Shown: positions 3,367-27,743 of the stretch, piece after piece
Layout of the letters: the number at the start of each line of letters is the position of its first letter
Numbering within the stretch: position 1 is the stretch's first letter
Origin: an uncultured Bacteroidales bacterium
GTDB lineage: Bacteria > Bacteroidota > Bacteroidia > Bacteroidales > JAFGXI01
Length of the DNA stretch: 44,109 nt
NCBI GenBank assembly: GCA_947311115.1
Contig: CAMZKE010000074.1
Location: 1 to 44,109 of the forward strand
Reading direction: 5' to 3'
Notes under the pieces: model-generated
The model's database searches: none
The model's input: only the letters and a program-made list of their open reading frames with translations
Told to the model about the DNA's origin: nothing
Made by a program: the position numbers and the translations under genes

Positions 3367-4101
3367 TTAATAATAATATACTTTTTCTTCATTAGATGAA
3401 ACCTCAAACAAATAAGCTACAGATAATTGAAACACACGATTATACGACTTCTCATAATTTTCAGGTTTTGTTTCATATGTTAACACATCAGAAAGACCTT
3501 GAGAAAATCTTAACGAAACAAACATCAATACATCTTCTATAGGTATTTCAAATCCTAAACCTACTTTAAAACCATATTCATGTCTATTAGTTTTCACTCC
3601 ATCATTTGCAAAACTATCATCAATTTCATGAGAATCGTCTTTTAAAACTTTTTCGCCATATTTATAATATTCTTTATATTTTCCGGCAAACATATAACCA
3701 TAATACCCCCCTAATTCTAAATAAGGCCCCATGCCTCCTGCACCTAATACATATTTAAACATTAATGGCACCTCAACATAATGTAACGAATAATTCCATT
3801 CTCCTGTTAATGATGTATCGTTATATATTTTATCAATTTTTGCTTTCAAGCCCTTTGTATTATATGCAATTTCAGGTTGAATTGAAAAAGATTTTATCTT
3901 AAAATTGAGAACAACAGCTCCATTACCTCCAAATTTAGGCACAAAATCAGATATATTATTTCTTTCTTGATTGAATTCATCAACTGCGGGCATAGTTGAT
4001 GCCGAGCTCATATTTAATCCTGCTTTAAAACCCACAAAAATTTGTGAATAACCTGTACTTATTGAAAATACTATAATAATTGTTGCGAATATTTTTTTCA
4101 T
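3367..4101 (-). CDS. Outer-membrane beta-barrel protein (PorT-like family)
   Basis: The 244-residue protein has a signal peptide (cleavage after about residue 19, GYSQ). Alternating hydrophobic strands follow, beginning with the VGFKAGLNMS-type first strand common in small Bacteroidota outer-membrane barrels of the OMP_b-brl_2 type. It probably folds as an eight-strand barrel; its ligand or role cannot be read from sequence. It sits between the DUF4293 gene (18-base gap) and mnmE (2-base gap), so it is probably cotranscribed with both. It is one of five barrel genes between 3.3 and 9.5 kb. Confidence 0.75.
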   Translation of the reverse strand: MKKIFATIIIVFSISTGYSQIFVGFKAGLNMSSASTMPAVDEFNQERNNISDFVPKFGGNGAVVLNFKIKSFSIQPEIAYNTKGLKAKIDKIYNDTSLTGEWNYSLHYVEVPLMFKYVLGAGGMGPYLELGGYYGYMFAGKYKEYYKYGEKVLKDDSHEIDDSFANDGVKTNRHEYGFKVGLGFEIPIEDVLMFVSLRFSQGLSDVLTYETKPENYEKSYNRVFQLSVAYLFEVSSNEEKVYYY

Positions 4102-4637: not shown

Positions 4638-5423
4638 CTAAAAATCTAGCAATACCAATCCTACTGAAAATTGATTTACTGGTACAGCCATGTTAGGATA
4701 AAACATTTCAGAGAAATTATATTCAGCATAAATTTCAAATACACCGTATGCAAATTTAAAAATTACACCATATTGGAATGGATTTAATTGGTAATTTTCA
4801 TAAATTTTCTCCTTAATTTTATTTCCATCACGTTTATAATTGTATTTCATATACGATACAATATTATACGAGCCGAAAACACCTGCCGAAACAAATATTA
4901 GTCTATGTTTTCTTCCAATTTTATTTTGCCACTCAAAAATTAAAGGAATTCGTAATTTATTAATTGTTAGTTTTGTTTTGTAAAAATTGTTTACTGTATC
5001 CTCAACAGCAGAAATACTTGTTGTTGTATTTATGATTCTGTAATAGTTCTTAAACCTGTAATTATTAAATTTAAGTCCTAGCCCTGTAACAATTCCAAAA
5101 TGATTTTTATACAAATTAAAACTATGCTGAAAAAAATCGAAGTTTACTTCCCACGAACGTATTTCGTTAAGCTCTAAAACATCTTCATTAATCTGTCCAA
5201 GTTGATTAAAATCTGAAGATGATTTTATATTCATCATATTTAAACCTAAGGAAAAACCGACTAAATGCCCTCTAAAATCAGGTTTTTTATTAGCTGATGT
5301 ATCAGAGCCAATAATAATTACTTTGGTTTTCCCAAATTTAAAAAAAGTTGTATCATTACCATCTGTTTGAGAATATGCAAAAACAGAAATAAAAAGCAAT
5401 ATTATAATACAAAACTTATTCAT
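4638..5423 (-). CDS. Outer-membrane beta-barrel protein, third gene of the sigma cassette
   Basis: The 261-residue protein has a signal peptide (about 1-18, ending AYSQ), a short soluble segment, then alternating strands from about residue 50 (VGFSLGLNMM) to the C-terminal FSVGLVLLDF, whose final aromatic residue is typical of barrels. Its ATG directly abuts the stop codon of the anti-sigma-like gene with no intervening base, which argues for translational coupling. It is therefore a candidate outer-membrane partner or sensor for the anti-sigma protein. That link is inference from gene order. No TonB box or plug domain is present. Confidence 0.7.
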   Translation of the reverse strand: MNKFCIIILLFISVFAYSQTDGNDTTFFKFGKTKVIIIGSDTSANKKPDFRGHLVGFSLGLNMMNIKSSSDFNQLGQINEDVLELNEIRSWEVNFDFFQHSFNLYKNHFGIVTGLGLKFNNYRFKNYYRIINTTTSISAVEDTVNNFYKTKLTINKLRIPLIFEWQNKIGRKHRLIFVSAGVFGSYNIVSYMKYNYKRDGNKIKEKIYENYQLNPFQYGVIFKFAYGVFEIYAEYNFSEMFYPNMAVPVNQFSVGLVLLDF

Positions 5424-6545
5424 CTATTTTCTTATTTTTTTTGATACCCTAAACCTGTTAGTGTTTATTGCTAATTTAGAAACCTCTCCATCTTTATTAT
5501 AAATTTTTTCTATTTTAGTACCTGTAAGTTCCGATATTTTTTTGCCTAAGAGTTGCCAAACACTTTTTGGATTAACTATATTTGGCTCATCATCATTACT
5601 TTTATAATGTGACATCATCTCTGAAATATAAACATCTGATTTTATTTCATTTGTAAGAGATTTAACCATTGTTGGATTACAATTTTCATTATTATCAACA
5701 ACATTATTCAACAAATCAGCTTCCTTTATATTATCATTTGGTTTTATTTCAGGTATATAAAATATTGGTTTATTATTTCTGTATTTAGGAATATTATTAT
5801 TTGCTAAATTTTCTTCAACAACAATTAATTGTGCATTTTTTTTACTAATATAAATGGGTTTTATCATAGGCTCATTGTTAGCAAAATTAGAAGTACTTTT
5901 TGCAACAATTTTAGGTGTTTCTCTCTTTATTACTGTAAATGCTTGTTGATTATCGTATTTATCGAAACTACTTAATTCGCCATAATCAACCACCGATGCA
6001 ATTTGCTGTGTTGATGTATTATTTGATATTTGTTTAAATTCATTATTATTTTCAAATAAAAAATATGAAATAAATATAACAACTAATATTGCGGCATATT
6101 GATATACCCTTTTTAACTTAAATATACCTGATGAAACAGAAGAACGTTTTAATTTTTCTTTTTCATTAAATGTTATATTCAAGTCTGGTTTAATAATTGT
6201 TTTTGTAAATATTTCAAATTCTTTCTTTTTATTAATATCTGTTTCTAGTTCTTTATTAAAACTAATAAGTTTTTCTTCCGGTAAATTGTTTTCTATTTTA
6301 TCAATACATTTATCAAAGAAAACACTTCCGGTGATAGTTGTGTCTGTTTTTTTAAGAAAATTTTTAGGTTCAAATTTTATAGGTTCTTTTTTGAGTTCAA
6401 CATATTTAAATTGATTAAACTCGTTATCCAAGTCACTATTCTGAGCCAGAAACAACATTAGTTCGGCAACCTGATGGTTGTTTAAGTTACCATCAAAGTA
6501 ATCAATAAAAAACTCTTCGTAATTATTTCGTGTTATTTTATTCAT
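5424..6545 (-). CDS. Anti-sigma-factor-like inner-membrane protein with duplicated N-terminal unit
   Basis: The 373-residue protein has a cytoplasmic N-terminus of about 145 residues, one transmembrane helix (about 147-165) and a long Asn-rich periplasmic region. The N-terminal unit NYEEFFIDYFDGNL (8-21), followed by a helix rich in charged residues, matches the short helical segment at the start of many Bacteroidota anti-sigma proteins. A second diverged copy appears at about 76-134. It starts 8 bases after the stop of the ECF sigma gene and abuts the barrel gene. The expected role is to bind and hold the sigma factor at the membrane. No zinc-binding HxxxCxxC motif is seen, so the anti-sigma call rests on position and architecture. 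Confidence 0.65.
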   Translation of the reverse strand: MNKITRNNYEEFFIDYFDGNLNNHQVAELMLFLAQNSDLDNEFNQFKYVELKKEPIKFEPKNFLKKTDTTITGSVFFDKCIDKIENNLPEEKLISFNKELETDINKKKEFEIFTKTIIKPDLNITFNEKEKLKRSSVSSGIFKLKRVYQYAAILVVIFISYFLFENNNEFKQISNNTSTQQIASVVDYGELSSFDKYDNQQAFTVIKRETPKIVAKSTSNFANNEPMIKPIYISKKNAQLIVVEENLANNNIPKYRNNKPIFYIPEIKPNDNIKEADLLNNVVDNNENCNPTMVKSLTNEIKSDVYISEMMSHYKSNDDEPNIVNPKSVWQLLGKKISELTGTKIEKIYNKDGEVSKLAINTNRFRVSKKIRK

Positions 6546-6553
6546 TTTATTTT

Positions 6554-7039
6554 TTAAAGTATTTTCTCGATACTTCCAATGTAATTTTTTAAAAACAAAC
6601 GTGCTCTATAAATATATACCTTAACTTGCGATTCGTTTAAATCAGTTATTTCTGCTATTTCTTTATACGAATATCCTTCGTAATCTCTAAGCATAATAAC
6701 TGTACGCTGCTTTTCAGGCAGTTTATCTACTGCACTTGTTAAAATTTCACCAATATCAGAATAATTTTCTGAATGTGAGTAACTAACTTCATTCACATTT
6801 TCGAAATCTACTATTCTTTTATTCTTTCTAAAATAGTCAATAAGAGTATGGTACGCAGTTGTAAAAATATAAGATTTTGCTTTTTCAAAAGATACTGTAT
6901 CAACTTTAACCCACATTTTAGTATAAGTTTCTTGAACTATATCTTTTGCAACTTCTTCATCTTTTGCATTTTTTAGAACAAATCTAAAGACTGCATCAGA
7001 AAACAAATCTACACTTTTATTATACTCTTTTATTGTCAT
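6554..7039 (-). CDS. ECF-type RNA polymerase sigma factor
   Basis: The 161-residue protein has only sigma regions 2 and 4. Region 2 spans about 8-75, with AKDIVQETYTKMW (31-43) and the DNA-melting segment AYHTLIDYFRKNKR (62-75). Region 4 spans about 105-152, with LPEKQRTVIMLRDYEG and a helix-turn-helix ending in YIYRARLFLKN. It would direct RNA polymerase to an envelope-response regulon and usually its own operon. The anti-sigma-like gene follows after 8 bases. A near-consensus -7 box (TATATTTA, 7061-7068) lies upstream, so autoregulation versus housekeeping transcription is undecided. Confidence 0.93.
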   Translation of the reverse strand: MTIKEYNKSVDLFSDAVFRFVLKNAKDEEVAKDIVQETYTKMWVKVDTVSFEKAKSYIFTTAYHTLIDYFRKNKRIVDFENVNEVSYSHSENYSDIGEILTSAVDKLPEKQRTVIMLRDYEGYSYKEIAEITDLNESQVKVYIYRARLFLKNYIGSIEKIL

Positions 7040-7081
7040 TTTCTTAGTGTATGACGATGGTAAATATAAATAGTTACACTA

Positions 7082-7693
7082 TTACATTGTATAAAATAAA
7101 TTAAGTACTAAAACATTATTATAACTACCGCTTTTATAAAAATTAAATGGCTCGTTATCTTTTATTGGTATTATTGAGTAAAGAAACCTGACTCCAACTT
7201 TAACATTTGGTGTAAAATGCCAATTTACCCCTACTAAACTACTAATATCAAATTTTCGCACATGATAATATTGTGGGTCTATTGGTTCTAAGCATTTAGT
7301 ATCTTCTTTTGCTTTTACATTTATTGCCGGAGCCAAACCCAAATCGAACGATAATTGAGTTATTTTTTTTATATGTTTTGGTTTAAGAGTAAGATAGGTT
7401 GGCAACTCAATATAATTAACTATTAATTTATAACAAGTTCCTGTTTGTGCATCAGAGAATTTACTACCTTTATTAATATAACTTATTTCAAGAGTAGCAA
7501 ACCACTCTTTATTAAAATTAAATCGTGTAAAAATACCAAAATCAAAACCGAATTTATTATATCCGCCATAAGTGTCGCCATCTACCTGAGATGTTACACC
7601 TCCAGCAAAAAAACCACCGGAAAAACCTTTTTCTTGCGAAAAAGAATTAATACTTATTAAAGCTATTATTAAAAATAAAAAATATTTTTTCAT
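7082..7693 (-). CDS. Outer-membrane beta-barrel protein
   Basis: The 203-residue protein starts with a signal peptide (MKKYFLFLIIALISINSFSQ) followed by strands beginning GFSGGFFAGGVTSQVDGD. I use the ATG at 7693; a longer frame exists only from a TTG six codons upstream and would spoil the signal peptide. The C-terminus ends in a hydrophobic strand with Phe-Tyr (LVLNLFYTM). It is a small porin-like or PorT-like barrel of unknown function. The gene lies 42 bases upstream of the ECF sigma gene on the same strand, so sigma transcription may partly depend on read-through from here. Confidence 0.7.
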   Translation of the reverse strand: MKKYFLFLIIALISINSFSQEKGFSGGFFAGGVTSQVDGDTYGGYNKFGFDFGIFTRFNFNKEWFATLEISYINKGSKFSDAQTGTCYKLIVNYIELPTYLTLKPKHIKKITQLSFDLGLAPAINVKAKEDTKCLEPIDPQYYHVRKFDISSLVGVNWHFTPNVKVGVRFLYSIIPIKDNEPFNFYKSGSYNNVLVLNLFYTM

Positions 7694-7709
7694 TCTGCTA
7701 TTAAAAAAC

Positions 7710-7740
7710 AAAAGCCATATGCTTACAGCTTACGGCTTTT
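7710..7740 (-). terminator. Rho-independent terminator of the 7762-8409 gene
   Basis: On the minus strand AAAAGCC (7740-7734) pairs with GGCTTTT (7716-7710) around a 17-nt loop and is followed by a run of six T. It separates the upstream barrel gene from the barrel gene at 7082-7693. Confidence 0.65.
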
Positions 7741-26573: not shown

Positions 26574-27743
26574 CTATCTTAATCTAATAATTGCATCTTC
26601 AATAGTTGATTTCAGTCTAGAATACACTTCTTCTTTTGTTCCAAAACCATCTACTTTAACAACATCCATTTTCTTTTTGTAATATTCAGGAACTTTTGCC
26701 GAAATATTTTCATATTCTTCAATTCTATGAATAATAGTTTCAGGATTTGAATCATAAGTTCTTGAATCATCAGTTTTACGTCTGTCATACAAACGTTTAA
26801 AAGCCTCTAACATTGATATATCCAAATCTATAACCAAAGTTAATGAAGAGTCTACTTTACGCAATAATCCATCTAAAATATATGCTTGAACTATTGATCG
26901 AGGATAACCTTTAAATATAAATCCTTTTGCATCAGGATTATTATTAATTTCTCTTTCAATTATTTTAATCGCTATTTCATCAGGAACAATATCTCCTTTT
27001 TTCATATAGCCTTGTGCCATATTTCCAAGCTCAGTATTATCAGCAATTTCTTGTCGTAAAAGCTTTCCTGTTGAAATATATTTCAGTCCAAATTCATCGG
27101 CTAATTTTTTACTTTGACTTCCTTTACCCGAACCAGGCATACCAAGTAAAACAACATTAAATAATCTGTCTTTTAATGTTTCTTGAATAACTTTATTTAT
27201 ATTATCATAAATTTCATCAATTTCTCCAATTCCATTTACAGCATTATATATACCTCTTTCTTGATAGTATTTTGCAACAGGTGCCGTTTTTAAATCGTAT
27301 TCTTTAAGTCTATTTTCAATAACTTCGGCGGTATCATCAGCCCTACCCGATGTTTTTGCACGTTCAATCATTCTTTTTCGCAACTCATCTTTTGGCACCT
27401 CTAAACTTATCATACACGATAATTTAGAATTTAACCTCTGCAACATTCCCTCAAGAATATATGCTTGAACATAAGTTCTTGGAAAACCATCGAAAAGTAC
27501 TCCCCTTACTTTTGTGTTAGATTCAATAAAGCCTTCAATAATTTGAACAATTATTTCATCATCAACCAAATTACCTTTTTCAATAATCGATTTTGCTTTT
27601 AAACCTAACTCTGTTTTATTAGCTATTTCATTTCTTAAAATATCTCCTGTAGAAATATATGCAAGATTATACTTCTGTATAAGTTGTTTAGACTGAGTTC
27701 CTTTACCTGCGCCCGGAGGGCCAAAAAGTGCTATATTTAACAT
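26574..27743 (-). CDS. adk: Tandem adenylate kinase fusion (two Adk domains)
   Basis: The 389-residue protein consists of two adenylate-kinase-like domains, about 1-192 and 194-389; a normal short Adk has about 190-215 residues. Domain 1 has GPPGAGKG (8-15), STGDILR (31-37), DGFPRT (85-90) and GRADD (133-137), all standard, so it should interconvert ATP, AMP and ADP. Domain 2 keeps the P-loop GMPGSGKG (201-208) and STGKLLR (224-230). It has KGYPR (278-282) where Asp-Gly-Phe-Pro-Arg is expected and a loosened lid segment (DDSRTYDSNPE). The catalytic Asp is thus Lys, suggesting a weakened or regulatory domain. A -7 box lies 29 nt upstream, and a bidirectional terminator follows. Confidence 0.9.
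   Translation of the reverse strand: MLNIALFGPPGAGKGTQSKQLIQKYNLAYISTGDILRNEIANKTELGLKAKSIIEKGNLVDDEIIVQIIEGFIESNTKVRGVLFDGFPRTYVQAYILEGMLQRLNSKLSCMISLEVPKDELRKRMIERAKTSGRADDTAEVIENRLKEYDLKTAPVAKYYQERGIYNAVNGIGEIDEIYDNINKVIQETLKDRLFNVVLLGMPGSGKGSQSKKLADEFGLKYISTGKLLRQEIADNTELGNMAQGYMKKGDIVPDEIAIKIIEREINNNPDAKGFIFKGYPRSIVQAYILDGLLRKVDSSLTLVIDLDISMLEAFKRLYDRRKTDDSRTYDSNPETIIHRIEEYENISAKVPEYYKKKMDVVKVDGFGTKEEVYSRLKSTIEDAIIRLR

Follow-up and report, generated by a model that had tools for sequence, protein, structure and literature searches.

The window (the whole stretch of DNA analysed here, 44,109 nucleotides from an uncultured Bacteroidales bacterium) carries on its minus strand a cassette in which the gene for an ECF sigma factor is followed by that for a membrane anti-sigma-like protein and then by that for a small outer-membrane barrel. 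ORF coordinates, profile matches and AlphaFold2 (AF2) models agree with the original prediction of a sigma gene, an 8-bp gap, a single-pass anti-sigma and a barrel gene at zero spacing, the barrel ATG standing right behind the anti-sigma stop codon. Two further elements had gone unmentioned: a promoter, in full TGTAAC-N16-CGTC-ATA (7078-7053), and a run of three more genes on the same strand, starting 42 bp ahead of the sigma gene. The features of the cassette are as follows.

7053..7078, minus strand: ECF-type promoter TGTAAC-N16-CGTC, 13 nt ahead of the sigma start codon (pattern kept in relatives)
6554..7039, minus strand: ECF sigma factor, 161 aa (Sigma70_r2 E 1e-9, Sigma70_r4_2 E 2e-19; tree)
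5424..6545, minus strand: single-pass anti-sigma-like protein, 373 aa (ORF, AF2, family search)
6411..6521, minus strand: anti-sigma helical module 1, residues 9-45 (AF2, alignment)
6201..6344, minus strand: second helical module of the anti-sigma, residues 68-115, repeating module 1 (AF2, alignment)
6042..6128, minus strand: transmembrane helix, residues 140-168 (AF2, hydrophobicity)
5565..6038, minus strand: predicted disordered periplasmic tether, residues 170-327, about 158 residues (pLDDT <50 throughout)
5436..5561, minus strand: small C-terminal alpha-beta3 domain, residues 329-370, a putative docking domain (AF2 block pLDDT 59-81; motif conserved in alignment)
4638..5423, minus strand: outer-membrane beta-barrel, 261 aa (ORF, AF2, structure comparison, family in relatives)
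5310..5351, minus strand: short periplasmic beta-hairpin of the barrel protein, residues 25-38 (AF2, moderate confidence)
4641..5285, minus strand: eight-strand barrel domain, residues 47-261 (AF2, structure comparison)

The sigma factor consists of regions 2 and 4 only, within the roughly 160-190 aa expected of ECF members of the sigma-70 family. In the anti-sigma, there is one hydrophobic segment (residues 147-165), which lies within the AF2 helix at 140-168 and is followed by about 205 residues. Both cytoplasmic modules are modelled as three-helix bundles, and relatives have one to six copies; the anti-sigma at L335:3057-5033 has about six tandem copies of the N-terminal module of about 70 residues. 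On the AF2 model, the disordered chain of 158 residues would be long enough to span the periplasm. As a single sequence, the protein matched no Pfam or NCBIfam family above cut-off, no FecR domain and neither RseA nor RseB, and a PDB sequence search gave no credible relative for it or for the barrel. The class I anti-sigma profile (ASD-I/zf-HC2) found nothing in the window protein. Of 19 relatives, two matched it weakly (best E 0.0065), and one relative scored 22.0 bits against the class I domain cut-off of 22.2.

The AF2 model of the barrel, fed with 28 locus-derived sequences, has eight strands (mean pLDDT 87.6) and an N-terminal signal-like helix; only about 27 residues separate signal and barrel, too few to accommodate a plug. 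A loosely similar hairpin motif occurs in 22 of 41 relatives. Structure comparison with VIA-align returned NspA (Z 12.6), OmpA (11.9-12.2) and OprF (11.6), all at 7-9% identity, a level that indicates a common fold and does not imply function. Ail, which gave the top Foldseek matches, was set aside as a functional relative on the same ground, as it merely has the common eight-strand fold. The window barrel alone had no meaningful match in Pfam or NCBIfam, and 19 of 28 relatives matched PF13568 (OMP_b-brl_2). In many Bacteroidales relatives, a DUF2807/GIN domain precedes the barrel, giving proteins of about 500 aa (for example L087:6522-8072). Two small OMP_b-brl_2 barrel genes lie on either side of the cassette on the same strand (3367-4101 and 7082-7711), both also present in the sister genome (L072). 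Elsewhere in the window, a 389-aa ORF (26574-27743) resembles a tandem pair of adenylate kinase domains.

Conservation of the cassette across Bacteroidia

Because the anti-sigma is too divergent for a single-sequence scan of genome contigs, which returned no matches, named genomes were scanned with a sigma alignment instead. This gave 80 loci, mostly from uncultured Bacteroidales, and including Marinifilum flexuosum DSM 21950 (L229) and members labelled Lentimicrobium, Salinivirgaceae and Marinilabiliales. The sigma relatives are 45-71% identical to the central member. Where the locus extends 3.5 kb or more downstream (54 cases), the anti-sigma adjoins the sigma gene in 53 and the barrel is adjacent too in 32. 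Class-wide, 80 of 149 genomes encode a member of the anti-sigma family, the sigma/anti-sigma/barrel triad occurs in at least 9 of 20 loci fetched across the class, and gene maps place the triad order in many families of the order as well as in other orders of the class. The three-gene order, for which a search in other Bacteroidota had been proposed, recurs class-wide, far past close relatives. Since both order and spacing recur across the class, they are not due to chance. The three genes almost certainly form a single regulatory unit.

Anti-sigma and barrel also tend to occur in the same genomes. In a set of 60 (the window genome, its sister, the family and the order), 36 encode both, 4 the anti-sigma only, 8 the barrel only and 12 neither (Fisher p 8e-5); a profile search for the barrel added one barrel-only genome (p 3e-4). 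The barrel is not adjacent to the anti-sigma in one sub-clade, and many genomes encode it elsewhere. Of the four members of the family that belong to other genera, three (G002, G004 and G005) keep sigma and anti-sigma, and no barrel of the window kind was detectable there by profile search; the anti-sigmas of G003 and G004 are shortened to 205-210 aa. Natural short anti-sigmas of this length (L073:6738-7370, L075:6329-6946) have neither tether nor terminal domain, and in these relatives the barrel is unlinked or absent. In L105 (G059:C109), the order differs: the barrel gene precedes the sigma gene rather than following the anti-sigma, and again has the promoter. The barrel alignment was too diverse to yield patterns.

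Promoter and predicted regulon

The consensus TGTAAC-N16/17-CGTC, with a spacer of mostly 16 or 17, precedes the sigma gene in 85 of 110 distinct cases, or 99 of 110 with relaxed −10 letters, against a mean of 0.25 in dinucleotide shuffles. Among linked barrels, it stands ahead of 46 of 50 when at least 40 bp separate the genes and of none of the five with a shorter gap; the window barrel, at 0 bp from the anti-sigma, falls in the short-gap class. For unlinked barrel genes, the promoter was found within 150 bp in 12 of 20 cases, compared with 4 of 601 unrelated ORFs. Barrels thus carry the promoter whether linked or unlinked, which argues that ECF-regulon membership is old for the barrel and no by-product of adjacency. 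Given these promoter copies of its own, the barrel is at least a regulated product. Stand-alone DUF2807-like genes (for example G053:C63 and L274) bear the promoter too. The flanking OMP_b-brl_2 genes could suggest that an ordinary sigma/anti-sigma pair merely happens to lie beside an unrelated porin-like gene, an explanation that is contradicted by the class-wide recurrence and the shared promoter and that we consider extremely unlikely. The TGTAAC/CGTC consensus is of the general ECF type (AAC/CGTC), and in some relatives it also precedes other ECF sigma genes, where regulon assignment is not unique. Flavobacterium psychrophilum has an ECF motif whose CGT box is conserved, and promoters of this class drive type IX secretion (T9SS) genes there (PMC9723704).

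In the window genome there are 12 promoter sites, nine of which lie clear of longer ORFs, at 13-86 bp from the start codon that follows, whereas a reversed-pattern control placed 1 of 17 sites correctly (p 2e-4); the whole-genome count does not exceed this control (12 versus 17), and the signal lies in placement only. Besides sigma, the site-bearing genes encode an M16 peptidase, an ABC ATPase, a CarboxypepD_reg plus DUF5686 protein, an S46 peptidase, an M13 peptidase with a lipoprotein-like N-terminus, an S49 SppA-type peptidase, a DUF4412 protein and a secreted BNR-repeat protein. All five well-placed sites of the sister genome precede orthologues of this set (S46, sigma, DUF5686, SppA and DUF4412; 60-83% identity). 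Exported or membrane peptidases make up four of the eight targets other than sigma, and the simplest reading of the predicted regulon is one resembling an envelope-stress response. No T9SS core gene is among the predicted targets of the window genome.

A separate barrel as proposed outer-membrane sensor

Two sister lineages bear on the role of the barrel. At PG0214-type loci, a homologous barrel lies behind a short anti-sigma of 148-154 aa, which could not extend as far as the outer membrane; two such loci were fetched, and one encodes a small secreted-type protein in between. In family f68 (L336-L339), the sister sigma is 39-43% identical over its length and has the same kind of promoter, and the C-terminal half of the anti-sigma is itself a PorP/SprF barrel (PF11751, E 3e-20 to 5e-30). 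These fused anti-sigmas lie at L336:2717-4429, L337:1872-3551, L338:2020-3690 and L339:1665-3332, and the gene after the fusion, where checked, encodes a stand-alone PorP/SprF barrel. The fused barrel belongs to another family than that of the window. In the tree, the four f68 sigmas group together with support, next to the window and PG0214 clades, with 85/92 for all three together. No in-frame fusion of a window-type anti-sigma with a window-type barrel was found in the 80 named loci or in the other fetched-locus maps. A 738-aa frame at G182 (L334) was considered as such a fusion and rejected, as the open frame extends upstream of the anti-sigma start and across the sigma gene.

The cassette had been proposed to be a trans-envelope signalling module. 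Its class-wide conservation, the promoter type of sigma and barrel and the anti-sigma/barrel fusion of the sister lineage uphold one functional module with a non-TonB barrel, in which the barrel may sense the surface and contact the anti-sigma. We favour, with a probability of about 0.52, a split version of the dual membrane-spanning anti-sigma Dma, an envelope-stress switch that would read the outer membrane through a separate barrel. In the resting state, the cytoplasmic helical modules of the anti-sigma would hold sigma. The anti-sigma would cross the inner membrane once, with the disordered tether spanning the periplasm and the small C-terminal domain docking on the eight-strand barrel, a contact that we infer. 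The state of the outer membrane, or possibly the supply of folded barrel, would then be read in the cytoplasm, and a disturbed outer membrane would presumably cause the release of sigma, which would then switch on its own operon as well as the genes for the barrel, envelope proteases and transport. The recurrent gene order, the co-occurrence of anti-sigma and barrel, the promoter ahead of both sigma and barrel genes, the placement of sites in the window genome and its sister, the Dma-like plan of the anti-sigma, minus the barrel, and the f68 fusion count for a split Dma. Against it count the barrels encoded elsewhere under a promoter of their own, an arrangement expected of a regulon output, the family members with no detectable barrel, those with a shortened anti-sigma, the pairing of the PG0214-type barrel with a too-short anti-sigma, the different family of the fused barrel and the occurrence of the promoter consensus before other ECF sigma genes.

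In the main rival explanation, the barrel would be output only, with sigma freed by an inner-membrane or periplasmic cue (for instance if the anti-sigma were degraded step by step, as RseA is), the barrel serving as a repair or barrier protein and its place in the operon ensuring co-expression. Such a barrel would be expected to have its own promoter copy, also when unlinked, to occur with short anti-sigmas as in PG0214-type loci, to belong to a regulon of envelope proteins and to be missing from some relatives that retain sigma and anti-sigma. This explanation leaves the tether of about 158 residues, the conserved terminal domain and the sister-lineage fusion unexplained, and gives no account of why a single target should stay beside the anti-sigma class-wide. 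We regard it as a serious and somewhat less probable rival to the split Dma.

The barrel might instead be a PorT-like assembly factor or a T9SS factor, the module then reporting outer-membrane protein assembly or T9SS load and not damage. Three of 28 barrel relatives match PorT/SprT weakly, the fused variant has a PorP/SprF domain and T9SS genes of F. psychrophilum are under promoters of the ECF/CGT-box class. The window barrel itself has no match to PorT/SprT (NF052311, cut-off 125 bits), the scores of its relatives are weak (best E 5e-5) and the predicted regulon of the window genome lacks T9SS core genes; this explanation is improbable.

A broader proposal, which we make tentatively and at slightly short of an even chance, is that Bacteroidia possess, throughout the class, an envelope-stress sigma system not described before. 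Its tethered anti-sigma would read the outer membrane by way of a separate eight-strand barrel docked in trans, as the two-piece counterpart of Dma, and one sigma would govern both the barrel and the envelope proteases.

Relation to known systems

A recognised class I anti-sigma domain is encoded near only 6% of Bacteroidetes ECFs (PMC7406223), and for this reason a conserved, unnamed anti-sigma family is useful in itself, the control of most Bacteroidota ECF sigmas being an open question. With the family come its promoter, a regulon prediction and a putative partner in the outer membrane, trans-envelope sensing becomes testable in two separable proteins, and Marinifilum flexuosum offers a cultured carrier of the module.

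The module resembles FecI-FecR-FecA and SusC-linked ECF systems in its ECF sigma, single-pass anti-sigma and outer-membrane partner, but has no FecR domain, plug or TonB-dependent receptor, and its barrel has 8 strands rather than 22. Enterobacterial sigma-E is an autoregulated ECF sigma with a membrane anti-sigma, RseA, and an envelope-protease regulon. The window system shares a predicted autoregulation, a membrane anti-sigma and envelope proteases in the predicted regulon, whereas it has no RseA/RseB match and an outer-membrane barrel gene is linked to the pair. Barrels of the OmpA/OmpX/NspA type have the fold of the window barrel, which lacks a Pfam match. The GFO_1088/PG0214 group of sigmas (NF058625) is a sister clade in the tree, and some of its loci encode a homologous barrel; the window sigma scores 117.8 bits against the cut-off of 130, and the anti-sigmas of that group are short, unlike that of the window.

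The premise that Bacteroidota ECF systems signal through TonB-dependent receptors, from which the original prediction started, is too narrow, as Dma1/2 and Reo are anti-sigmas with non-TonB barrels (PMC13088901, PMC9308784). PMC13088901 gives the Dma plan as an N-terminal sigma-binding domain, a transmembrane helix, a disordered tether and a C-terminal barrel. A cognate sigma of group ECF21 is a further mark of the class. The genome of the window encodes a one-piece Dma-like protein of 569 aa behind another ECF sigma (G000:C26:6638-8347, L135:6638-8347), with an N-terminal part, a transmembrane segment, an Asn-rich, disordered-looking tether and a C-terminal OMP_b-brl domain; homology between it and the window proteins was not detected. 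A search of the literature outside subscription papers, to which the first descriptions of Dma1 and EcfO belong, found no account of the sigma/anti-sigma/barrel triad. The window module has in common with Dma/Reo a Bacteroidota ECF sigma beside an anti-sigma with a transmembrane helix and a long tether and, as predicted, an outer-membrane barrel partner and an envelope-related output (PMC13088901, PMC9308784, PMC13114119). The modelled anti-sigma appears to have the N-terminal sigma-binding domain, the single transmembrane helix and the long disordered tether, a likeness of architecture only. In Dma/Reo the barrel is within the same polypeptide, whereas here it is a separate ORF, which in most relatives has a promoter copy to itself, and the tether leads into a small terminal alpha-beta3 domain. 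By definition the module is not a Dma, yet by analogy it would work like Dma/Reo, as a split Dma. A barrel without a plug in Bacteroidota ECF signalling is already precedented by Dma1/2 and Reo.
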